DNA from: Amyelois transitella
Lineage: Eukaryota > Arthropoda > Insecta > Lepidoptera > Pyralidae
Direction: 5' to 3'
DNA: 64,000 nt
Assembly (NCBI RefSeq): GCF_032362555.1
Contig: NC_083533.1
Coordinates: forward strand, 749,001 to 813,000
Numbering within the stretch: the first letter of the stretch is position 1; each line of letters begins with the position of its first letter. Of this stretch, positions 18,313 to 49,873 are shown piece by piece. The translations under genes were made by a program, and so were the position numbers. The notes below the pieces were generated by a model. The model ran no database searches and was not told the DNA's origin. It worked only from the letters and a program-made list of their open reading frames with translations.

Positions 18313-21300
18313 CTATAGTAGATGATATATACATATAGTAGATTTCTATCTCTTTCGCACATCTGTTCACACCGTCCCGTTCACCCGTTCGCCGCAGGTG
18401 GTCCCGGTGGTTGTAACGCCCAGTACACCCAAGTACTACTACTTCTCGTTCGACAGTGAACCACCGGAGAATGATACGAAGAGAGAGCAGCTACTGCCGA
18501 GGTAGGAAATTGAATGAATGAAATAAATAAGTTGATTTGATCGATTGCCAAATCTGAGCTGAACGCGGCCATTCAGTCTTTTCAAGACTGTTGGCTCTGT
18601 CTACCCCGCATGGGATATAGACGTGACCATATGTATGTATGTATGTAAATAAATTGAACGAAATTGAATGAAGGTTTTTTTTACGTTTTAATTTAGAGAT
18701 CTTGTTCGTAACATCTTTATTACACATAAATTTACATAGTCACAAGAAATAGTACACAGTTATAAAATAAATAAATCACTTGCAATGGTGGACTTATCCC
18801 TTTAAGGGATCTCTTCCCAGCCTTGTGCTGTCCTCACTCGCGGGAACCAATTCCTAGCCTTCTACCTTCTTCACATGCGGGAACTTATTGTAGTCTTGTA
18901 CCTTCCTCACATGCGGGAACTTATTGTAGTCTTGTACCTTCCTCACATGCGGGAACTTATTGTAGTCTTGTACCTTCCTCACATGCGGGAACTAATTGTA
19001 GCCTTGTACCTTCCTCGCATACATACATACATACATAAACTCACGTCTCTTTCCCGGAGGGGTAGGCAGAGACTACCTCTTTCCACTTGCCACGATCCCT
19101 GCATACTTCCTTTGCTTCATCCACATTCATAACTCTCTTCATGCAAGCTCGGCGGTTTCGGGCACTTTTGACCTGACCCTTCACCAGGACGTCCTTAATT
19201 TGATCAAGATATGTTCGTCTAGGTCTTCCCACCCCGACCTTTTCCTCCACACTCTCCTTGTATATCTGCTTAGTCAACCTGTTTTCATTCATCCTCTCCA
19301 CATGACCGAACCATCTCAACATACCCTTTTCTATTCCTGTAACTACATCTTCTTTCACATCACAACATTCCCTTATCACGCTGTTCCTTATCCGGTCACT
19401 CAATTTCACACCCAACATACTCCTTAACGCTCTCATTTCCACTGCATTTATTCTGCTTTCGTGCTTCTTTTGCCATACCCAACTTTCACTCCCATACATT
19501 AATGTCGGGACCAACACGCCCCTGTGCACAGCCAGTCGAGCCTTTTTGGATAGTTTCTGACTGCTCATAAAGGCATGCAAAGCTCCATTCACCATGTTCC
19601 CCGCGTTCACTCTCCTTTCAATATCACTATCACACTTGCCATCTGATGTAAACTTTGATCCTAGATATACAAACTCTTTCACTTGCTCAACTTTTTCTCC
19701 TCCAATCAAAATATTACATGCTGTCATTTCTTTCTCCATTTCAAAAACCAGTGTTTTAGTTTTACTTACGTTCACTTTCATTCCTTTCTCTTTTAAAGCT
19801 TCATGCATACAGTTTACCATCTCCTGTAATTCCTCCGCTGATGACGCCAGTATAACCTGATCGTCGGCATAGAGCAGACATTTGACGAGTAACTCATTCA
19901 TCCTTAATCCACTTTCAGACTCTTTCAAATCTGTCAAACAACTATCCATAAATAGGTTGAACAGCCACGGTGACGCAACACATCCCTGCCTAACACCTTT
20001 CTCAATCTTAAACCACTCAGTGTGCGCTCCGTTTATCCTGACACAAGCACTCGAATCCTCATATAAGGATTTCAGTGCTCGTATCAAAAGACTGCTCACC
20101 CCATGCATAGAAAGTGCTGACCACAATTCATTCCTCTCAACTCTGTCATAGGCCTTTTCCAAATCCACGAATGTGCAATAGACTTTTTGACTTTTTGACT
20201 GAAATTAAGGACGTGTGCCGTGTGGTTCCCGGCACCAATGAAAAAAAGAATAGGACCACTCCATCTCTTTCCCATGGATGTCGTAAAAGGCGACTAAGGG
20301 ATAGGCTTACAAAATTGGGATTCTTTTTTTTTAGGCGACGGGCTAGCAACCTGTCACTATTTGAATCTCAATTCTATCATAAAGCCAAATAGCTGAACGT
20401 GGCCATTCAGTCTTTTCAAGACTGTTGGCTCTGTCTACCCCGCAAGGGATATAGACGTGACAATATGTATGTATGTATGTATTAAGGACGTCCTGGTAAA
20501 GGGTCAGGTCAAAAGTACCCGAAACCGCCGAGCTTGCATGAAGAGAGTTATGAATGTGGATGAAGCGAAGGAAATATGCAGAGATCGTGGCAAGTGGAAA
20601 GAGGTAGTCTCTGCCTACCCCTCCGGGAAAGAGGCGTGATTTTATGTATGTATGTATGTATGTATAAGACATAAATACAGCGTCGCGCGTGTCACGCTAC
20701 TGGGCATGCGCTCTCATTTTCCACGTCCACTATTACTTCCCAGATTCAACTACACGATTCCGAAGAGCGTAATACTGATCGTGGAGTCGGATGATGACAT
20801 ATGTGGATTGGTCTCCATACAGAACAACTCGGTAAGTTTACGGATTTTTCTTCATGTATAATAATTATACACGGAATAGTGCCGTGATACAGAACAACTC
20901 GGTAAGTTTACGGATTTTTCTTCATGTATAATAATTATACACGGAATAGTGCCGTGATACAGAACAACTCGGTAAGTTTACGGATTTTTCTTCATGTATA
21001 ATAATTAATATTTACGGATTTTTTTTTCATGTAGACTAGGTACCTACCTACATACATATATATACACGGGATAGTGCCGTGCCGTGTGGTTCCCGGCACC
21101 AATGAAAATAAAAGAATACGACCGCTCCCATCTTGTTCCAACGGATGTCGTGAAAGGCGATTAAGGGATAGGATTATAAACTTGTGATTCTTCTTTCCCA
21201 TTAATGTCGTAAAAGGCGACTAAGGGATAGGATTATAAACTTGTGATTCTTCTTTCCCATTAATGTCGTAAAAGGCGACTAAGGGATAGGATTATAAACT

Positions 21301-36335: not shown

Positions 36336-38739
36336 CCCATTCTTGACCACCGTGCCAATTTGGGAACACTTATTTTTTGAGGGTAGATAAAAAAAGTGTT
36401 GACACCAGTGTATGTTCTGTTGCGTAGTTGTGAAGGCAAAAGAGTGCGCTTATGGTAAAAAATTAAATAAAAGCATAAAACATCAAAAGTGATATTGTTT
36501 TCATAAATTAAAAATATCTATTTATAGAAGCATCGAGGTAAGTGCATATTATTTACTTATACGACAGGTCGATGTACGATATCGTGATAGTGGTTTTAGT
36601 TATTATAAAATAAGATATTGGACAAACGTTTATATGTAAATTTAGTAACTTTTATCTTATGTATGCAATTATACGGTCAAGTAAATATTGGTGTGCCAAT
36701 TTTGGTACAGTGGCTACAAGTGTGCAATAATTGAATATTCATTTCAGGACTTCAAGATGAGTCGAAAACAGACTTTTAGCGCCAGTAATAACTACAGAGG
36801 ACTTGAGGATGCCATTCATGACATAATAGAGGATAGTGATGACGGTTTGGAGTATGACCTAGCCATTATTCCTCCAGATCCAAGTATTGTTACTGATGAA
36901 GAAGAGGGTTTCGACGAAGATTTGATGCCGTCGAGCTTACCAAATGACGTTCCTGGTAACATTGAAGTATTTGTTCACAATATTGGTAGTCTTTCAGACT
37001 CTGGTGACAGTAGTGATGATGAGCCTTTGGCTGCAAAAAAAGCACGTAAAGACACAGGTAGTACATCACATGCAGAGCAATCCAGAAACACTGTACCATC
37101 TCGTCGTCAAGCCTTGAATATTCCAATTTGGCGAAAGTGTGCTCCTAACTATTCTACTCAATACGAAGAAACTGAGGAACGGTTACTCTGTGAGAACCAT
37201 GTGAAAGAGCAACTAAAAGATTTGACTCCTGTTCAAATTTTTGAAAAGCTTTTTGATGATGAAGTATTTGAGATGATTGTACACTTTAGCAATCTTTATG
37301 CGAGCCAAAATAATAGACACAACTTTTGTGTCACAACTGAAGAGCTAAGGATATTTTTTGGAATACTCATTCTTTCAGGTTACCATAAGTTACCTCGAGA
37401 ACACATGTATTGGTCTTTGGATGAAGATGTTGGCGTAGAAGTCGTGTCAAAAGCGATGTCAAGAAATAGATTTAGAGAAATCAAACGAAACTTGCATTTG
37501 GTAGACAATAATGATGCTTCGACTACTTCTGATAAAATGTTCAAGGTCCGAAAATTGTCCGAAGTACTCATGAAAAAATATAACCAGTGGGGTATTTTTC
37601 ACGAGTTTATTTCAATCGACGAATCAATGATTCGGTACTATGGCCATCATCCAGCCAAGCAATTTATTCGAGGCAAACCTGTTCGGTTTGGTTACAAGAA
37701 TTGGGTTGCTGCAAGTTCTTCAGGATATTGTTATAGCTTTGATATTTACTGTGGAAAGTCTACCACGCCGACCACTGAGCCACTTGGTACAAGAGTAGTA
37801 AAATTGCTACTCAATAAATTGACGACGAATGCTGCAAATCATAAAGTATTTTTTGATAATTTTTTTACCAGCTGTGATCTACTCTATGACTTACGTCAGT
37901 CAGGATTTCGGGCCACTGGAACTGTGAGAGAAAATCGTACCAAAAAATGCCCATTATCGTCTGTAAAGGAAATGATGAAAAAATCACGAGCAGTATATGA
38001 CTACAGGTTTGATAAAAATAATGAAATTCTTTTGGTCCGCTGGAAAGATAACAGTATTTGCACAATGGCTACCAATTACGACTCATATGAGCCTTTAGGA
38101 CTTGTAAAGAGATGGTGTCCAGAAAAAAAGGAGAAGGCTGAGGTGACGATTCCACATCTCTTTCAAAATTACAATAAAGGCATGGGTGGAGTGGATGAAT
38201 TAGACCAGTCGATATCACTCTATAGGATTGGGATTCATGGCAAGAAATGGTGGTGGGTTCTATTTACCTACATGATTGACATGACCATAGCAAACGCATG
38301 GCGTCTACATGTCCTTGCTAAAGAAGATCCCATGGACCAATTGTTGTTTAGGCGAAACATAGCCAGATACTACCTCAGGCATTCAATTCAGAAACAAAAC
38401 ACTCGTCCTTCGTCATCAAATATTGATGGGTTACAATTAGATGGTAAGAACCACGTCCCTGAAAAACTTGTGAAACGTGTACGGTGTGTTGTTTGTCATA
38501 ATAGAAGCCGTTGGGGGTGCAAAAAATGCAAGAAAACACTCTGTATAGAAAAATCGTGTTTCGCTGATTTTCACTCTTAGGTGGCCACTGTGCCAATTTG
38601 GGTACACCCCTGTAATTTCCTGAAAAAATGTTTTTTTTTCATTTTCGAGCAGATTTATTTGTTTTTGTACTCCTCTTTCATGAATAAATAAAGAAAAATT
38701 AAAAATTAACATGTGCGTTTTTATTTGGCCTCTAATGGG
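36336..38739 (+). mobile_element. piggyBac-type DNA transposon, apparently complete, flanked by TTAA target duplication
   Basis: Element of about 2.4 kb bounded by TTAA at 36332-36335 and 38740-38743. The ends start CCCATT on each strand, with imperfect similarity for about 13 bp. Subterminal 23-bp near-identical motifs containing GTGCCAATTTGGG lie at 36347-36369 and 38585-38607, with a related copy that reads well in the opposite sense at 36693-36716. One long intact transposase ORF fills the interior. TTAA duplication is the piggyBac signature. It sits in the sid-1 downstream region, between degenerate terminal-exon copies and PTP-ER. Confidence 0.93.
36757..38580 (+). CDS. piggyBac transposase (DDE_Tnp_1_7 type), intact
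   Basis: Cut-and-paste transposase. The ORF is open from 36688; the likely start is the ATG at 36757 (MSRKQTF), since the upstream part contains a possible splice acceptor and overlaps a subterminal motif. This gives 607 residues, the usual piggyBac size. The acidic N-terminus (EDSDDGLEYD) is followed by the DDE_Tnp_1_7 domain. Catalytic Asp are visible: in FISIDESM (about residue 288 from this start), VFFDNFF (about 367) and GGVDELD (about 480). The C-terminal Cys-rich region (CVVCHNRSRWGCKKCKK) is the expected cross-brace zinc finger. No stop or frameshift is visible, so the gene may be active or recently active. Confidence 0.95.
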   Translation: MSRKQTFSASNNYRGLEDAIHDIIEDSDDGLEYDLAIIPPDPSIVTDEEEGFDEDLMPSSLPNDVPGNIEVFVHNIGSLSDSGDSSDDEPLAAKKARKDTGSTSHAEQSRNTVPSRRQALNIPIWRKCAPNYSTQYEETEERLLCENHVKEQLKDLTPVQIFEKLFDDEVFEMIVHFSNLYASQNNRHNFCVTTEELRIFFGILILSGYHKLPREHMYWSLDEDVGVEVVSKAMSRNRFREIKRNLHLVDNNDASTTSDKMFKVRKLSEVLMKKYNQWGIFHEFISIDESMIRYYGHHPAKQFIRGKPVRFGYKNWVAASSSGYCYSFDIYCGKSTTPTTEPLGTRVVKLLLNKLTTNAANHKVFFDNFFTSCDLLYDLRQSGFRATGTVRENRTKKCPLSSVKEMMKKSRAVYDYRFDKNNEILLVRWKDNSICTMATNYDSYEPLGLVKRWCPEKKEKAEVTIPHLFQNYNKGMGGVDELDQSISLYRIGIHGKKWWWVLFTYMIDMTIANAWRLHVLAKEDPMDQLLFRRNIARYYLRHSIQKQNTRPSSSNIDGLQLDGKNHVPEKLVKRVRCVVCHNRSRWGCKKCKKTLCIEKSCFADFHS

Positions 38740-41645: not shown

Positions 41646-41696
41646 ATGGTGGAAACCGTAGGCCTAGGAGTTCCCTCAACAGTATTTAAATGCACA
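41646..41696 (+). CDS. PTP-ER: PTP-ER exon 1 (short N-terminal exon)
   Basis: ATG followed by VETVGLGVPSTVFKCT and a GTAAGT donor, phase 0. It lies about 180 bp downstream of a motif AAAATGGCCGTC resembling a YY1-type site. Assigned because frame and phase match exon 2; no homology is visible in so short a peptide. Confidence 0.5.
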
Positions 41697-44600
41697 GTAA
41701 GTAATTTCGCCCAATATTCCTCTGTTATCAGCAACTCAGATCTATAAACGGCCCGCTCACGTCATCTTTTAACTACGAGGCAAACTTGAAACTGCAATTT
41801 CATGCAATTACGTAGGGAATATGATGTTGTTTTTCTAAAACTATTGCTCGATAATAAACCTTGAAATTCATATTGTTTGTCTTGAAAACGTAGTTGGATG
41901 GCCTTTTCGACTGTTCATTGACACGTTAGTGAGGAAATCCGAGTAATTAGAGAAGGAAAACACACGTTGGGCTTCGACCTCCCTCTGATGTTGACAAGAT
42001 GTGTAAGTCCCAGAAATAGACCAGTCTGAGTACTTACGTCTGCGACAGTTCATCATTGAAATGTGTTTATCAATCGTCACTAAACTTAGCAGGAGGATGT
42101 GACGATACTAATTTTAATATGCGCGAAAATTTGAGTGTTTTTGCCATAGTTCAATAATATAGTCTTTAGAACTTCCCTCTCAAAATCAATGTTAGACATT
42201 GCAAATGACTGTTAAAAAACTTCACCTCTGATATATATTTAAAATTAATAATAACTTAAATATTAATGTACACAACACCCTTAACATAATTAATTTATGT
42301 AGGTAAAAACAAGATATTAATACCTTCCTAATATTTTTTTTTATAATATTTATTCCATTAACCAGTCAAATTTATTTTTCAACTAGCATTCTCCATTCCT
42401 GTAGACATTCTGGGATAAAAAGTATTCTATATCCATATGTATTTTTTTTATTGTTTTTATTTTTCAAAATTGGACACAAGGTATCACTAATTGACATCAA
42501 ATCACTTAAATATAATTATAACTATAAACATATTCAACCTAAAAACTATTTTTCTACAAAATTCGTCAAATAGATTTTGTTACACGCATTATTCACTTAC
42601 ATGAGGTTCTCTGAAAATGGACTGCGTGAATTACCTACCTTCTTTTAAAGAGTATTTAAAGAATGTACCTACTACTTTCAGAGTAATTGTAAAGAAAGTA
42701 GTTTGGGAGAAACTTATCATTTATATATTTATATTATATAGTTTCTGACACTTATGACTACCTTAATAACAGAAACATCTGGCTTGAGCTTGGCGCAGGA
42801 ACCTCATGAAGAATGTAGTAGGTCTGTAGAAATAAAATTCGGTAGGTAGGTACACTGTACACCAATTTTATTTAAATTTTAGACTTAGAATTTATTATTT
42901 TCATTACTTATTTATTATATTTCTTTGCATTATTGAAATTTATTGAACTAAACAAATTTATCATAACAATGTATTATCTCTCCTCCCCTTCTCTTTTGTC
43001 TATTTCTAATTCTTAGTTTAGATCATTGTTAGGTTGACATTATGGAAGCATATGTTGCAGTGCAGTTTGTTTCTGCCCATTCTGCACTGCCACTATGGAA
43101 GTGGCACTAAACTTAAGTTTGAAATAATTAATTTGACATCAAACAATGTTGTGAAACCAAAAAAATATGACTTAGTATCCATCGCTGAATCGCCGCCCGA
43201 ATCTTATCCCGATGACCTTGGATATTTATCTGATATTTGTTTGTTTGTTTGAACGCACTAATCTCAGGAAGTACTGGTTCGAATTGAGTAATTCTTTTTG
43301 CTTTGAATAGACCATTTATAGAGGCAGGCTTTAGGCTAAATAACATCACGCTACAAACAAATAATAGAATATGTGAAAACAAAAACGGGGGGGAAATTAT
43401 TCATCCGTCAACGATGCCCAAAATAACGGACGAACTCGGGGAGAACAGCTAGTTTTTTTCTCTATAAAGGCTCACAGTGCTCACGGTTGTACAGATGTGA
43501 TCACGGGGGCATGTGCGCGGCAGTGGCGGGGCTGGTGTGCGGCGCGCTGGCGGCGCTGTTGCTGCTGCTGCTGGTGGCGCGCTGCCGCCGCGCCAAGCGG
43601 GCGCCCGTACCGCCTCCGCACCAGGTCACTAGTAGTTCAGATCTAAGGTGTTTTGTCGCCGTTCGAGATTTTTGTTTGTTTGTTTGTTTGTTTGTTTGTA
43701 AACTCTTTATTGCACATAAAAATAAATATAACAAAAATAAAACAGTCATTGGATATACAGTGGAATCCGGTTATAACGACGGTCAAGGGACCAGTGATAT
43801 TACGTCGTAATAACCGGAAGTCGTACTAAACAATCATTTTTTTTTTAATAATCATATACAAAATTTATGTACATACGTATTAATACGTATTAAGGTGACT
43901 AACAGACAAAAAAAAAACATTGAATTAAAAATATTTATTTATTTCACATATAATAATATGCATACATATACGGTACAGAAGTGTACTAAGAAGGAAAAGA
44001 AATGAGATTAATCAATAAGTAATTTAAAACAACGCAACACCTACTGCAAAAAGTCGGTAATTTTTGATTGTTTTTGTTTTTTATTTTTATAGTAAGAAGT
44101 ACGGACTGCATTATGCAATTGTAAAAACGTTGTAAAATAAAACTTTTTTCTTCAATAGAGAAACTTTTTCGCTTAGCCATTTTAGTACGCGCACTCACTT
44201 GTCACCCGCAAATTAGGAAATGTAACATAAACAAAACAGACAGTCCGCGATGCATGGGCTAGGCAGGTGCGCGGGGCGGGGATAGCTTCTATTATGTACC
44301 TATAACTTAGATTTGTTTGTAAACACGTCGACGCACGTCGTTATAACCGGACAATGTGCGTTGAATTCCGTCGTTAAAAGCGGTCGGTCGTTATAAGCGG
44401 AGTCGTAATAAACGAATGTACTTTCATAGTGGCTCGATACGAAACCAAACATATGTCTATAGTTGCGTCGCTAAAAACGGTTGGTTGTTATATGCGAAGT
44501 CGTACTAAACGGATTCTACTGTATGTACAATGGCGGACTCATTCCAATCAAGATTTTTTCCAGTCAACCAAAATAAAAAGGAAAATTCATAATCAAAGAG

Positions 44601-47600
44601 GCAGCGCAGATTAAAAGCATTTTTGTTTTGTTTTGCAAGTTTTTTTTTTTTTTTTATTTTTTTAAAAAAGTTTTTGTATCTATGTTTCATTTTCTAGAGT
44701 GATTTGAGTGGTAAAAAGAGGGTAGATAAATAATATACAAATTGACTTGGAATAGGTTTTTTTTGCGACGGGCTAGCTGTCTGTCACTGTGTGAAACTCA
44801 GTTGTGTCACAGCTTAACGTGGCCACGTCACGTCATATGATCACGTCTATAGCCCTTGCTGGGTAGACAGTGCCCACAGTCTTGAAAAGAATATAATTAA
44901 ATGTATGTATTTACTTATAGATTTCTTGGTGCTATGATTGAACTAATATTAAAAAGTAGAATGATAATTTTCCTAACAAAGTAGGTAAAATGTATGATAA
45001 TAAATAGATAAGAGATCAGTCATTGTTTGCAGCATAGAAACAGCGATGTAGTGTAACATTTTCTATCTCCGGTTACAGGTGCACGTAGTGCGGTTCGCCC
45101 CCGCGGCGCCGCCGCGGCGCGTGGCGGTGCCCCCGCCGCCCGCGCCCCCGCCCCCGCTCCGCGCGCTGCTCACGCGAGCCCCGCCCGACCCCGACACGCA
45201 GGAACCCCCGCAAATTGTGATCGTACAAAACACTATTCCACCCCCAGACACTGATCCTAGCCACGAGCCCGGTAACTCCTATTCTCAGGCTCCTGGGCCC
45301 TCAGAATTCCGAGGTATACCTAAACTACCGCTCCCCGAGTGGCTCCCGCGGCGACCTTTGGACTGCAAGTATTCTACCACAATCCCGCGACCGCTCGTTC
45401 AAATCGTCGACTCCGAATTGGGAGCAGATCTGAACAGGGAGACGCGAGCTAAGAAATTTAGCGCAACGAGGTCTCCGTCACTGGAGAAAGACGACAAGAG
45501 CCCGTTCTTGGGCAGCGCCAAGTCGGCAGACAAGGGTGAAGTTTTCGGGTTTGACGAGGAAGTAGTTAAAAAACTGGAGGGCGACACGGAGGAGATGACC
45601 TCGCCGAAGGAGATGGAGCGGAGACAGGAGTCGCCGAGCAATTTGAGACGCTTCAGATCTGTCAGCACGCGGCTGAATATGTGCAGCGTGTCGGAGAGCC
45701 CGAATTTGGAAGGACAACAAGAGAGGCTGGAAATGCAGAATTCGCCGAGGATAATAGAATGCAGTTCGGCAAAAGAAAAGTCCTCTGCACCAAAATTCGA
45801 TTTTTCCCCTAAAATACTAGCCGATTGCATGAGCAGTCCCAGATTCTTCACTCCGCCCGAAGTGGTATCACCGGCGTTCTTTTCAGAGCCGTCGCCCAAA
45901 TCGGTATATTACGACAGCGTTAGGTCGCCGAAATTCTTCCCAGAAACCCCACGGGAATGTGCGGAAATTCCCCAATCGCCGAGGACATTAGGGGATCATT
46001 TGAACAGGAATGGTTTATCAGAAAAGCCCAGTTCTCCTAGAATACTAAGCGCTAAAGCCAGTCCAAAAATTCATAGTTGTAATAAAGAAAATTATTTTAC
46101 ATTCGATCAAGTTCACCTCGAAGAAAATGCATGCAGAGTGTCGCCGAAGCCGAAGAAATATAGCGGAAGAAATTCCATTGAAAAAGAAAGATTCACGCCG
46201 CCCGCCGATAAGGAAGCGAAGAAATACAGGAGACACAATAGTTGCGATACGAATTATAAAAATATCGAATTGAATATAACGAAATGTGATGATAACAAGG
46301 AGTGCGATGATAAAGTGGAGGTGATAGATACTGACGTGGTAGACTGTTGCGCCAAACTCGACAGTTTGCAAGTAGACGTCGAAGAAAAAGAAGAAATCAC
46401 TTCGACACATCCAAGTTCGGCACACGCTAGGAGGCAACGATTAAAATCGATATCTCTAGACTCGGATAACGCGAAAATTATTGAACATAATCTGGGTCTA
46501 CCTATTGCGAAACAAATGAAAGATCAGATGAACGAAGCTTACAAAAACCAAGATGTCAGCACGTCATGCGACAGTCTGGAAAGGCACCCTAAAACCCCCG
46601 TAAGCGAACTCGCGTCGTTCGAGTTTGCTGATGAAATGAAAGACAAAGAAGAGGAATTAAAATCGCCTCTGGATGTGAAACATAAAAAATGTCTCAGACA
46701 GAGTTCTGACACGCAGTCGTTTATAGACATGCCGAGATTTTCGCCGAAAGAGTTCGAAATAACTGTGACGTCAGAGGAAGGCGCCACCACAGCGGCCGAA
46801 ATGCAAACGAAACGAAAAGGGAAGAACCTGAGAAACTTAACGATAGATTTGACGAAACGAGACAGTGAACTGGAGAAGGAGTTGTTGGAATTCGAAAAGT
46901 TATACACGGACGCTGAGGAGAAGAAGGTGAAAACTCCGACTTTGAAAGTAAAAGCCACATCGTTAGATTCATCAGAGTCTGTCAATTTATCCTTGCCCCA
47001 AAAGAAGACTTTAGAAGTACCACAGAATTCTGTATCTGTACCTAACACGCCAAAGCGGCAATTGAAACGTATTTTAGCGCAGAAGAGTATGAAGCATGAT
47101 TTTAGTGGCGGGAAAGTTGGGTACAATTTCATGTTGTCAAATGCAGAACAGCGCAGATTGTTTATGAAAGGCCAGGATAGTGGTATCTTCCTTAGGGAGA
47201 ACCATGCTAGTCTAATGCTTTACCAGCCTGGCACGTCGCGAATGGGCTCCCGTACAATGGGTTCGTTCGATGAGAACATGGCGGATTTTACAGAAAGACC
47301 AGAAATTAACATATCTGGTGCCGACAATAGGTATTACGAACCTGGTCAAACTTTGGGGTCGAACTTGCTGAATTATAAACAGAGTTTGAGCGTGTCCAGT
47401 ACTAATTTGAAGACATTGCCCGAAGGCGTGCCGTCGGATGACTTCGAACCTAGCGCTGAAGATGAAAAATTAAGTAAAAAGTTGCACAGAAGGAATTCAA
47501 ATCAAAGCCTTATGTTGAGCACGCATAGCTTACAAAGTTCAAACTGTTCTTTGAACAGCTCAGGCGCGTCTTGTCACAACTTAGCTACGGTCCGCACAAG

Positions 47601-49873
47601 CATATCTAACTTCAGTCTGAACTCAGACAATAGACTGAAGAAATTATCATTGGAAAGACGAGACTCTAACACCTCATTGATCACAGATCACTTGACGCCA
47701 TCCACTCGAGTCATTTGCACGTCTAACGCTAGTCTCGGTGAGGTTTCCAAGAACTGTTTACTCCAAAGACGAGGTTCCAACAATAGTTTGACATTAAACA
47801 TACATTCGACCAACTTAAGTCGACATTCGAGCAATACTTCTTTGAACAAAGAGGCTAAACCTTTGAAAAAGGGTTTGTTAGAGCGGAGAAGTTCAAACAC
47901 GTCGCTTACTTTAAACATCAACACTTCAAATCCGCAATTATCTGTCAATAGAGGTTTGAGTATATCAAACTACAATCTGAATGGATCGACATGTAATTTA
48001 AGTAGATATAATAGCAATCATAGTATTGATAATCCTCCAGGAGAACCTAAAAAAGGTATTTTGGAAAGACGCAGCTCAAACACATCATTGACTCTAAATA
48101 TCCAACCTCAGGAGCCAAGGGATTTGGAGATCGACGAGAGTCTGATCAAAGCTAACTTGAACGATCTCCCTCACAGGGACAAACACAGAAAATCTTTGAG
48201 TACTGAGAATTTAATTCCGAAATCTTACAAAAATAGGTTAAAAATGTCATCAGAGAAAGTTGGTTTCGGGTCCCACGACAATCTCTGGTCGGCTTCGTAC
48301 CCAGATCAAGAATATCCTCAAAATTTAACTTACGTGGGCGGTGATCAGGAGAACGAGATGATTTACGCGTTCGGTCGCCAAGACGAGGGTGGTTTTCAGC
48401 AGGGTTTCATCAGGAACATAACGACGAAACCTCTCAGCCCTCAGAGCACATCGGAAGACTTCCGAATGTACTTGGCGAATATGCAGCATCTGCAGAACGC
48501 CTCTAGTGTGCTTTCAAGGCAGCAATTGCGCGATTTGAACAACGTTTTCCAGAACGGTTATTCGACAGTCAAATGCCATAGTTCATCGGAAGGCAAGCAT
48601 TGTTGTTCGGGGCGTGTGGAAGACTTGGCGTCTGAGAACCCGCAGATGGTCATACCAGACCCGGTCGTGAGCCAACCGTGTTCAGAGTACCAAAAGATGT
48701 TGCTGAGAAACCTCCATCAGGAGTTTTGGGATATGCCCACGAATTTTCAGGAGAAACCTATAGTGTCTGGCTCCCACCCAAAGAATAGATATAAGACGAT
48801 ACTGCCGAACGAACATTCGAGATTTATATTGAAAGATGGCGGTGGTGAGGGGTACATCAATGCCAATTTTATAAAGGTGAGTTATACACACTTACTAATG
48901 TTATAAATGTGAAAGTATGTTTGTTTGTTCGTCTTTCACGTCAACACGACGAAACTTTGCAAGTCTGTGTTTTAATTAATTTGTCATTACTTGAATATTG
49001 AAGTGAACTTTTCTCATTTTCCAGGGTCACGAGTACTCCAAAAACAGCTACATAGCGACCCAGGGGCCGCTACAGAACACCATCTACGACTTCTGGCTGA
49101 TGGTCTACCAGAACTCCATCTCTTGCCAGATCGAGGAGGCCTCGCCCCCATCAGTCCAAAAAGTGGTAATGCTTACCAATTTCATTGAGAAGAACCGGCA
49201 GAAATGCGAAAAGTACTTCCCGTTGGACCTGAACGAGGAAGTGACTTTCCCTAATCCGGACGAAATAGATGTCACCGCAGAGGAAAGAAGCACTTTCAGT
49301 ATAACGAACTGCGGTATGGTCAAGAAACCTGGTTATACGATAAGGAAATTGGATGTGAAGTATCAGAAACTAAAATCGATCACGGTACACCATTACTGGT
49401 TCCACAATTGGGCCGATCACAAGTGTCCAAAAGATGTGAACGCGTTGTTGAATCTGAGTTTAGACGTGTTGGCTGACAAGAAGTTGAACTTCAGTGATTC
49501 GTGTGAAGTGGACGAGGAACAGTGTAAATGTGACAGTCCGAGAGCGGACTCCAAATTCGTGTTTCCACCGTTAGAGACTAGAGTTTTGCCGTGTGAAGTG
49601 AGCGTTAATGTGTCCACGCCTTTAGACTTCTCCGTAGAGCAACATAGTCCAGCAACAATAATACACTGTTCAGCTGGGATCGGTCGAACGGGCTGTCTCA
49701 TAGCTATATTGAATGGTATAAAACAGTTGACGAACGAACACAAAGTTGACGTTCTCGGGATAGTGTGTAACATGCGTCTGAACCGCGGCGGCATGGTTCA
49801 GAATTCGGAACAGTACGAGTTGATACATAAAGTGTTGTGTTTGTTCGAGCAGATATGTCTCCCAAAGTTATAG
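41646..49873 (+). CDS. PTP-ER: Receptor-like protein tyrosine phosphatase of the KIM family (PTP-ER / PTPRR-like), complete, 4 coding exons
   Basis: Exons 41646-41696, 43478-43624, 45079-48876 and 49025-49873 join in phase 0 to about 1614 residues. Exon 2 gives one membrane helix (about 29-51) followed by RCRRAKR. The huge exon 3 is a low-complexity cytosolic region rich in Ser-Pro, with a repeat array of KIM-like motifs at about 866-1075, then the start of the PTP domain (KNRYKTILPNEHSRFIL). Exon 4 holds the catalytic core: HCSAGIGRTGCLIA with Cys1547, the Q loop (QNSEQYE), and a WPD loop altered to W-A-D (Asp1463). The IGRTGC and RLNRGGMVQ motifs resemble PTPRR/PTPN5/PTPN7, which dephosphorylate ERK and p38. 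In flies PTP-ER restrains Ras1/ERK signalling. The exon 1 join and start are the least certain part. Confidence 0.88.
41700..43200 (+). other. PTP-ER intron 1, no gene seen
   Basis: AT-rich, mostly unique sequence, with a partial dispersed repeat at 42450-42535 and another at 42990-43175. No supported coding frame or RNA gene. Confidence 0.6.
43205..43453 (+). mobile_element. Helitron-like element, family 1, in PTP-ER intron 1
   Basis: Family 1 body (GAACGCACTAATCTCAGGAA) ending GAACAGCTAG, only about 25 bp before the exon 2 acceptor. Confidence 0.82.
43478..43624 (+). CDS. PTP-ER: PTP-ER exon 2, transmembrane helix
   Basis: Codes for CSRLYRCDHGGMCAAVAGLV, CGALAALLLLLLVARCRRAK; one strong hydrophobic helix with a basic stop-transfer. 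Three Cys precede the helix. Acceptor CACAG at 43477; donor GTCACT is non-consensus but gives phase 0 into exon 3. Confidence 0.72.
43759..44521 (-). mobile_element. pogo/Tigger-like DNA transposon, non-autonomous, TA target duplication
   Basis: Terminal inverted repeats CAGTGGAATCCG (left) and its partner complementing CGGATTCTACTG (right), each flanked by TA. The interior minus frame 43986-44198 starts MAKRKSFSIEEKSFILQRFY, resembling the N-terminal helix-turn-helix of pogo-type transposases, then loses similarity. Internal TTATAACGACG words recur near both ends. Inserted into an older repeat (halves at about 43695-43757 and 44524-44560) in PTP-ER intron 2. Confidence 0.82.
45079..48876 (+). 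CDS. PTP-ER: PTP-ER exon 3, 1266-residue cytosolic region with KIM array and start of PTP domain
   Basis: One uninterrupted 3.8-kb exon. It starts VHVVRFAPAAPPRRV and a Pro-rich stretch, then has many S-P sites including the related SPRFFTPP, SPAFFSEP and SPKFFPETP. Eleven S-N-x-S-L units lie at 47479-48110; five are KIM-like (R-R-x-S-N-x-S-L). It ends in the PTP domain (GYINANFIK), GTGAGT donor. The acceptor before GTG (45079) is a good pyrimidine-AG site. Confidence 0.93.
49025..49873 (+). CDS. PTP-ER: PTP-ER exon 4, PTP catalytic core and stop
   Basis: Codes for GHEYSKNSYIATQGPLQNTI, VVMLTNFIEKNRQKCEKYFP, then the W-A-D loop, an acidic insertion (SCEVDEEQCKC) and the P loop. An extra segment (SISCQIEEASPPSV) lies between the DFW helix and VVMLTN. 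282 residues, TAG at 49871. Confidence 0.95.
   Translation, partial: GHEYSKNSYIATQGPLQNTIYDFWLMVYQNSISCQIEEASPPSVQKVVMLTNFIEKNRQKCEKYFPLDLNEEVTFPNPDEIDVTAEERSTFSITNCGMVKKPGYTIRKLDVKYQKLKSITVHHYWFHNWADHKCPKDVNALLNLSLDVLADKKLNFSDSCEVDEEQCKCDSPRADSKFVFPPLETRVLPCEVSVNVSTPLDFSVEQHSPATIIHCSAGIGRTGCLIAILNGIKQLTNEHKVDVLGIVCNMRLNRGGMVQNSEQYELIHKVLCLFEQICLPKL

Follow-up and report, generated by a model that had tools for sequence, protein, structure and literature searches.

The window analysed here, a 64,000-nt stretch of the Amyelois transitella genome (GCF_032362555.1, NC_083533.1, positions 749,001-813,000, forward strand), carries a gene for a protein tyrosine phosphatase (PTP) with an array of short repeated units upstream of its catalytic domain. 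The three exons of the model (Table 1) are all in frame, and a script comparison found their joined product identical at every letter to the 1586-aa NCBI protein P0001; a protein search with the joined exons returned LOC106142976 of the same species as a 100% match across the searched part. Elsewhere in the window, a long open frame contains a piggyBac-type transposase domain (36685-38580, plus strand; PF13843, E 2e-85) and another open frame contains a reverse transcriptase domain (19041-20204, minus strand; PF00078, E 2e-30).

Table 1. Features of the phosphatase gene and of its array of kinase interaction motifs (KIMs), in window coordinates
Feature	Position	Strand	Remark
Alternative first exon (probable), MVETVGLGVPSTVFKCT then GTAAGT	41646..41696	+	Like start of Plodia isoform X2 (P0002)
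Exon 1 (aa 1-38), very hydrophobic stretch	43511..43624	+	In-frame join; equals NCBI protein P0001
Exon 2 (aa 39-1304): disordered-looking N-terminal region, KIM array, start of PTP domain	45079..48876	+	
SSTNLKTLPEG, conserved element upstream of array	47395..47427	+	Common to beetles and flies
KIM A, LHRRNSNQSLMLST	47482..47523	+	5/7 PTP-SL contact positions
Unit w1, non-basic, SNCSL	47539..47553	+	
Unit w2, non-basic, SNFSL	47605..47619	+	
KIM B, LERRDSNTSLITDH	47650..47691	+	4/7 contact positions; drifting in Lepidoptera
Unit w3, without basic pair, SNASL	47722..47736	+	
KIM C, LLQRRGSNNSLTLNI	47758..47802	+	7/7 contact positions
Unit w4, without basic pair, SNTSL (within LSRHSSNTSL)	47830..47844	+	
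KIM D, LLERRSSNTSLTLNI	47875..47919	+	7/7 contact positions; flanks best matching single beetle KIM
Unit w5, non-basic, SNYNL (not SNxSL)	47965..47979	+	
Unit w6, without basic pair, SNHSI (not SNxSL; within LSRYNSNHSI)	48013..48027	+	
KIM E, ILERRSSNTSLTLNI	48058..48102	+	7/7 contact positions
HRKSLSTENL, conserved element downstream of array	48184..48213	+	Common to beetles
Exon 3 (aa 1305-1586 and stop), remainder of PTP domain	49025..49873	+	PF00102, E 1.2e-45
WAD replacing WPD loop	49409..49417	+	WADH in 32/32 full-length Lepidoptera rows
Catalytic P-loop HCSAGIGRTG, intact	49664..49693	+	32/32 full-length Lepidoptera rows

The phosphatase and its transcripts

The hydrophobic stretch encoded by exon 1 (hydropathy 2.83 across aa 5-23, a crude score and not a transmembrane predictor) is likely a membrane anchor, and a strongly hydrophobic N-terminal stretch recurs in 26 of the 32 full-length Lepidoptera rows among the matches listed. 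The alternative first exon would probably give an anchor-less form and, since one of the two first exons is hydrophobic and the other is not, anchored and soluble forms are both likely. An ATG-TGA, a start codon followed immediately by a stop, lies 16 bases upstream of the main start codon (43495-43500).

The whole array falls within a single exon, the same one that opens the PTP domain. Among the matches listed, all seven unlabelled full-length lepidopteran rows cross both exon junctions within one open reading frame, which joins the anchor or the alternative first exon to the array and the third exon. Such rows probably derive from RNA; other unlabelled lepidopteran rows continue into the intron after FIK, as expected of genomic DNA. 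The identity of the NCBI model and these seven junction-crossing frames led us to reject an array lying outside the mature mRNA, the outcome that the original prediction had named as speaking against it.

The catalytic domain is that of a classical PTP, matching PF00102 (Table 1). Among single-domain PDB chains it scores best with PTPRR (1jln), followed by PTPN7; seven double-domain chains (RPTP sigma, LAR, alpha and epsilon) outscore 1jln through the adding up of two domains. The best full-length relatives, from Plodia, Battus, Maniola, Drosophila species and Calliphora, are annotated as PTP-ER (best 120 of 2383). Judged from this similarity and from motifs that match the PTP-SL contacts, the moth protein is a PTP-ER orthologue, a KIM-type tyrosine phosphatase, as had been proposed from the DNA. 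Like the mammalian KIM phosphatases PTPRR (PTP-SL), PTPN5 (STEP) and PTPN7 (HePTP), it has motifs of the form L-x-x-R-R-x-S-x-x-x-L-x-L-x-hydrophobic, and the mammalian enzymes likewise come in anchored and anchor-less forms. They differ in having one KIM near the PTP domain (a single 16-residue KIM in PTP-SL, according to the extract of PMC2675061). The moth enzyme has a WAD loop and, besides three complete KIMs, a further two that are partial; the last KIM lies about 220 residues away from the domain (in most Lepidoptera rows, roughly 210-224 residues upstream of LHQEFW, where the PTP domain starts). We class the moth protein as a variant of the KIM phosphatases because beetle proteins are intermediate, with one KIM that is far from the domain.

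The P-loop, Q-loop and KNRY motif are intact in all 32 full-length Lepidoptera rows among the matches listed, and the WAD loop of these proteins retains the aspartate of the general-acid loop. Among the matches listed, WPDH occurs in 71/71 fly rows and WPD in 34 of 35 other animals, one giving no match. The named beetles listed divide into WQD (14/31) and WPD (17/31), a recount that led us to abandon WQD as an all-beetle trait.

SP-[KR] sites are dense in the N-terminal region at 45472-46197 (aa 170-411). Residues 39-1240 hold 11 such sites, compared with 1.6 by shuffling (maximum 7 in 3000 shuffles). Three other Lepidoptera that were inspected have 9-11, P0032 has 4 and Bradysia 5, and the count is just 1-3 in Aedes, Drosophila yakuba and Tribolium. 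The cluster could possibly comprise ERK or CDK target sites beside the ERK docking sites.

Units and complete motifs of the array

Between residues 845 and 1042 the protein carries eleven S-N-x-[SN]-[LI] units, their serines at positions 845, 859, 881, 901, 920, 938, 956, 977, 1001, 1017 and 1038, with gaps of 14-24 residues between units (mean 19.3). The original prediction had described S-N-x-S-L at eleven places with a mean spacing near 19. The places and the spacing are borne out and nine of the units are exact, with SNYNL at 1001 and SNHSI at 1017 as variants; its protein positions designate the same places and are all 29 too high for the 1586-aa protein. The RRxSNxSL core is present in five of the eleven units, as it had quoted. 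When residues 830-1060 were shuffled 20,000 times, neither count was ever reached, be it the nine SNxSL (shuffle mean 0.18, maximum 3) or the five RRxSNxSL (mean 0.001, maximum 1).

The main contributors to ERK2 binding in PTP-SL are given as L225, R228, R229, L235, L237 and M239, and S231 as the PKA site (extract of PMC2675061). We scored each unit by its match to these seven positions, a mammalian reference. KIMs C, D and E match at all seven, A and B only in part (Table 1), with A retaining the arginines and the L-x-L and having lost outer contacts, and the six other units at 2-3. Residues 39-1240 contain three sites with 7/7, whereas the mean over 1000 shuffles is 0.003. Because the contact scores are unequal, we count three complete and two partial KIMs, not eleven; the idea of a reiterated KIM thus survives as several KIMs interspersed with six units that have no basic pair. 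The distances between complete KIMs are 39-42 residues from C to D and 58-63 from D to E (47 of 48 Lepidoptera rows measurable). All five KIMs have the R-R-x-S serine, which is conserved at 100% in each of them over the 48 Lepidoptera rows. An array query led to one place in the moth genome among the best candidates scored, with no second array gene found there.

Conservation and copy number across animals

Relatives were taken from three listings. The first, the best 120 of 2383, holds Lepidoptera in rows 1-48 (27 named), 71 flies (65 named) and, apart, P0050. The second, the best 120 of 1569, contributes 115 new rows, of which 31 beetles and 35 other animals were tallied by name and 49 were not counted (5 named flies, one jgi row and 43 unlabelled, with 0-3 complete KIMs); one of these, P0169, has a second 7/7 match that we read as lying within the PTP domain, at residue 765. 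The third, the best 120 of 166, adds 28 new rows with 1-3 complete KIMs. The other insects tallied are a wasp, which is the one named row of Hymenoptera, a true bug (partial), lice, thrips, a termite, a cockroach, a grasshopper and a damselfly, and the non-insects are Daphnia, spiders, a tick, molluscs, a brachiopod, nemerteans, an acorn worm and lancelets; among the matches of the three listings, no row is named as a caddisfly, lacewing, scorpionfly or flea.

In the 48 Lepidoptera rows the cores of KIMs C, D and E are 98-100% conserved, except for position -1 of E (92%), among the matches listed. Conservation is near complete out to +6 and +8, beyond the span of a phosphosite, with positions +5 to +8 (T-L-N-I) at 98-100%; the mean for KIM B is 0.77. 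Over the 32 full-length lepidopteran proteins, core conservation is 1.000 for C, 1.000 for D and 0.988 for E, and the mean is 0.913 for the array, 0.814 for the PTP domain and 0.778 for the N-terminal region. The longest invariant runs in these proteins are 21 residues with the Q-loop, 18 at KIM D and 17 at KIM C, followed by 12 each at the P-loop and at RRQRLKSISLDS. Conservation (0.95) extends to the six units that lack the basic pair, a feature that docking does not explain.

Codon usage speaks to how the copies came to be alike. At 29 of 92 comparisons of identical residues among the five KIM units the codon is the same, as against about 25 expected, and the identical 14-residue stretches of D and E have 4 of 14 codons in common (4.2 expected); the B-E pair is an exception, at 6 of 9 against 2.6. 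With codon matches near chance, the likeness does not come from recent tandem duplication or gene conversion, both of which we rule out. By these sequence measures the array is old and selected.

Among the matches listed, three complete KIMs are found in 47 of the 48 Lepidoptera rows and in 27/27 of those named, the exception being P0032, which has two and lacks E. P0050, 56% identical over 62% of the query, has five. Strict RRxSNxS[LIVM] cores number five, four and three in 32, 15 and 1 Lepidoptera rows, respectively (37, 10 and 1 with a looser pattern). The 71 fly rows listed have three complete KIMs in 5 cases, two in 64 and one in 2; at six or more of the seven contact positions there are three sites in 57 and two in 14, and RRxSNxS[LIVM] cores number three in 55/71 and two in 16/71. 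The named flies P0122, P0123 and P0124 of the second listing have none or one, and some of the fly rows with fewer KIMs are fragments or short gene models. A single complete KIM is present in all 31 named beetles and in 34 of the 35 other named animals among the matches listed. Another loose pattern gives two matches in two beetles, the second outside the KIM. Pollicipes pollicipes (P0140), considered as an independent case of two KIMs, was rejected: a 122-residue stretch with the KIM and the start of the PTP domain is repeated identically, probably through duplication in the model or assembly.

The single KIM of beetles and other animals is read as the ancestral state, from which we infer that the copies were gained before or near the fly-moth split. 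Several KIMs had been put forward as a property of this insect's enzyme, with a search of orthologues in Lepidoptera, Diptera and Hymenoptera as the check. The array is indeed present and is kept in the Lepidoptera examined, where one conserved KIM with the others lost was not seen, and its range is broader than proposed, KIM copies occurring in the Diptera examined as well (Hymenoptera being one row). Drosophila PTP-ER (the named row is D. yakuba P0120, D. melanogaster being absent among named rows) and its dipteran counterparts are orthologous to the moth protein, with two or three KIM cores; they differ in having fewer copies than the three complete KIMs plus A and B of the moth and in keeping WPD.

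The two elements that flank the array extend this comparison. Among the matches listed, the SSTNLKTLPEG pattern is found in 48/48 Lepidoptera, 31/31 named beetles, 57/71 flies and 0/35 other animals, and the HRKSLSTENL pattern in 48/48, 31/31, 10/71 and 0/35; both elements are invariant in the 32 full-length Lepidoptera. The beetle proteins (Tribolium P0150 and others) thus have LKTLPE before the KIM, KSLSxENL after it and some SN-type units in common with the moth, yet they differ in having a single KIM, LERRGSNASLTIDL, in 31/31 named rows among the matches listed, and the frame of the array therefore seems to predate the additional KIMs.

By their flank scores, the KIM of beetles and KIM 3 of flies go with D of the moth, and other assignments are weak. 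The equation of fly KIM 3 with D is clear in Bradysia (103, runner-up 43) and Aedes (88, runner-up 57); in Drosophila the scores are 44 for E and 40 for D. Fly KIM 2 leans narrowly to C. The flanks of fly KIM 1 score best against D, not A, and those of unit B of P0050 also against D; because of this, the names A and B rest on order alone across orders of insects, and a pairing of every fly KIM with a moth KIM by its flanks was given up.

Proposed multivalent docking and its alternatives

We consider it probable that moth PTP-ER is a multivalent ERK-docking platform, in which an ancestral single KIM has been multiplied in the N-terminal region. Each complete KIM (C, D and E) would occupy the D-recruitment groove of ERK, so that several equivalent sites for docking would be strung along a flexible tether in one phosphatase molecule. 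The local concentration of ERK would be raised, allowing capture, rebinding and possibly the binding of more than one ERK simultaneously, and the phosphatase would dephosphorylate ERK, hold it, or both, more effectively. As each KIM retains the R-R-x-S serine, phosphorylation could lower docking capacity stepwise and not all at once; in PTP-SL, PKA phosphorylation of S231 is reported to impair ERK binding (extract of PMC2675061).

The kinase side of the proposed interface looks conserved: the moth ERK exon has YYDPNDE at the acidic docking site with both aspartates kept, and a change of one docking-site aspartate in Drosophila Rolled is the sevenmaker mutation, according to the extract of PMC7016714. 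A decayed-looking short second ERK copy (TFNPHKRIMVEEALAQPYLEQ) adjoins the true ERK exon (L013, frame 3, near residue 611). In Drosophila cells, PTP-ER RNAi is reported to raise phospho-MAPK (PMC3958334, in extract).

Simultaneous occupancy of several KIMs could be limited sterically or kinetically, although the spacing between the complete KIMs may leave room for more than one ERK. The loss of contact positions in A and B within Lepidoptera means that more sites are not always retained, and catalysis on a docked kinase is not assured, given that the last KIM is much farther from the PTP domain than in single-KIM animals. The fly rows with fewer KIMs also tell against the platform.

The strongest competitor, which we rate as somewhat less than an even prospect, is avidity with one ERK bound at a time, the extra KIMs aiding capture and rebinding or serving as backup. 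The 1:1 binding of single-KIM PTP-SL to ERK2 (n = 1.06, in the extract of PMC2675061) fits it, as do the erosion of KIM B and of the outer contacts of A in Lepidoptera, which redundancy permits, and the existence of P0032 without E. Simple redundancy should nevertheless let one copy slip, and C, D and E show no drift over the 32 proteins; the linkers between cores, by our estimate roughly at least 24 residues, also leave room for separate kinases.

A rather unlikely alternative is that the units are first of all sites for basophilic kinases (PKA or AMPK/SIK-like), read by a partner such as 14-3-3, with ERK docking secondary. The AMPK/SIK-like consensus is L-x-R-x-x-S-x-x-x-L. Every KIM has R-R-x-S, R-x-x-S flanked by hydrophobic residues at -5 and +4 recurs in w4 and w6, none of the eleven units in Amyelois has lost S0, N1 or the hydrophobic +4, and the invariant RRQRLKSISLDS and HRKSLSTENL also have basic residues before a serine. 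Such an array would not call for the conserved positions +5 to +8 of C, D and E, however, which are needed for docking and not for a phosphosite, and w1, w2, w3 and w5 have no basic residue at -3.

That separate KIMs serve separate MAP kinases (ERK, p38 and JNK) seems to us improbable. The copies do differ at -1 (N/D/G/S) and +2 (Q/T/N), fixed per copy in C and D, and mammalian KIM phosphatases are reported to bind ERK2 and p38 with different affinity (extract of PMC3956856); against this, a stretch of 14 residues is the same in D and E, and the mammalian preference depends, according to the extract of PMC2675061, on a KIS beside the KIM, which only the last KIM could have. Neutral expansion of a low-complexity stretch rich in Ser, Asn and Leu (45 S, 34 L and 31 N in 231 residues) can be set aside almost entirely, with chance and low complexity ruled out by counts that composition-preserving shuffles never reach and by near-complete conservation alongside chance-level codon matches.

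For the docking platform that we prefer, the design has a parallel in MKK7, a MAPK kinase that we take not to be homologous to moth PTP-ER. MKK7 is described as having three D-sites for one MAP kinase in its disordered N-terminus (PMC2928751, in extract); the two proteins share the idea of docking sites in tandem, and MKK7 differs in being an activator of JNK and not a phosphatase, with sites that differ in sequence and strength. Several docking sites in a MAPK partner are therefore already known, and the multiplication of KIMs within a PTP would be the new part. To our knowledge, the KIM phosphatases described so far have a single docking motif and bind 1:1. The literature searched yielded no PTP with several KIMs; the founding PTP-ER papers fell outside its coverage, and an earlier mention is possible.

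A bolder form of the docking platform, which we put forward tentatively and regard as doubtful, would make moth PTP-ER a multivalent ERK sink: several ERK molecules held per phosphatase, a capacity set stepwise by three to five serines, and a shift in Lepidoptera from turnover to trapping. The shift would go together with a WAD loop and with docking motifs whose conservation exceeds the mean for the catalytic domain.

Near-identical copies have been fixed by selection in two large insect orders, including the genetically tractable flies, and the series of one, three and three to five copies is a natural one. It makes testable how multivalent docking relates to the shape of ERK pulses, to sequestration and to cAMP-ERK crosstalk, and the change in the WPD loop raises the question of catalysis versus trapping. 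If the sink reading is true, the SN units and then the KIM copies, from beetles through flies to moths, would document, step by step, the building of a docking array.
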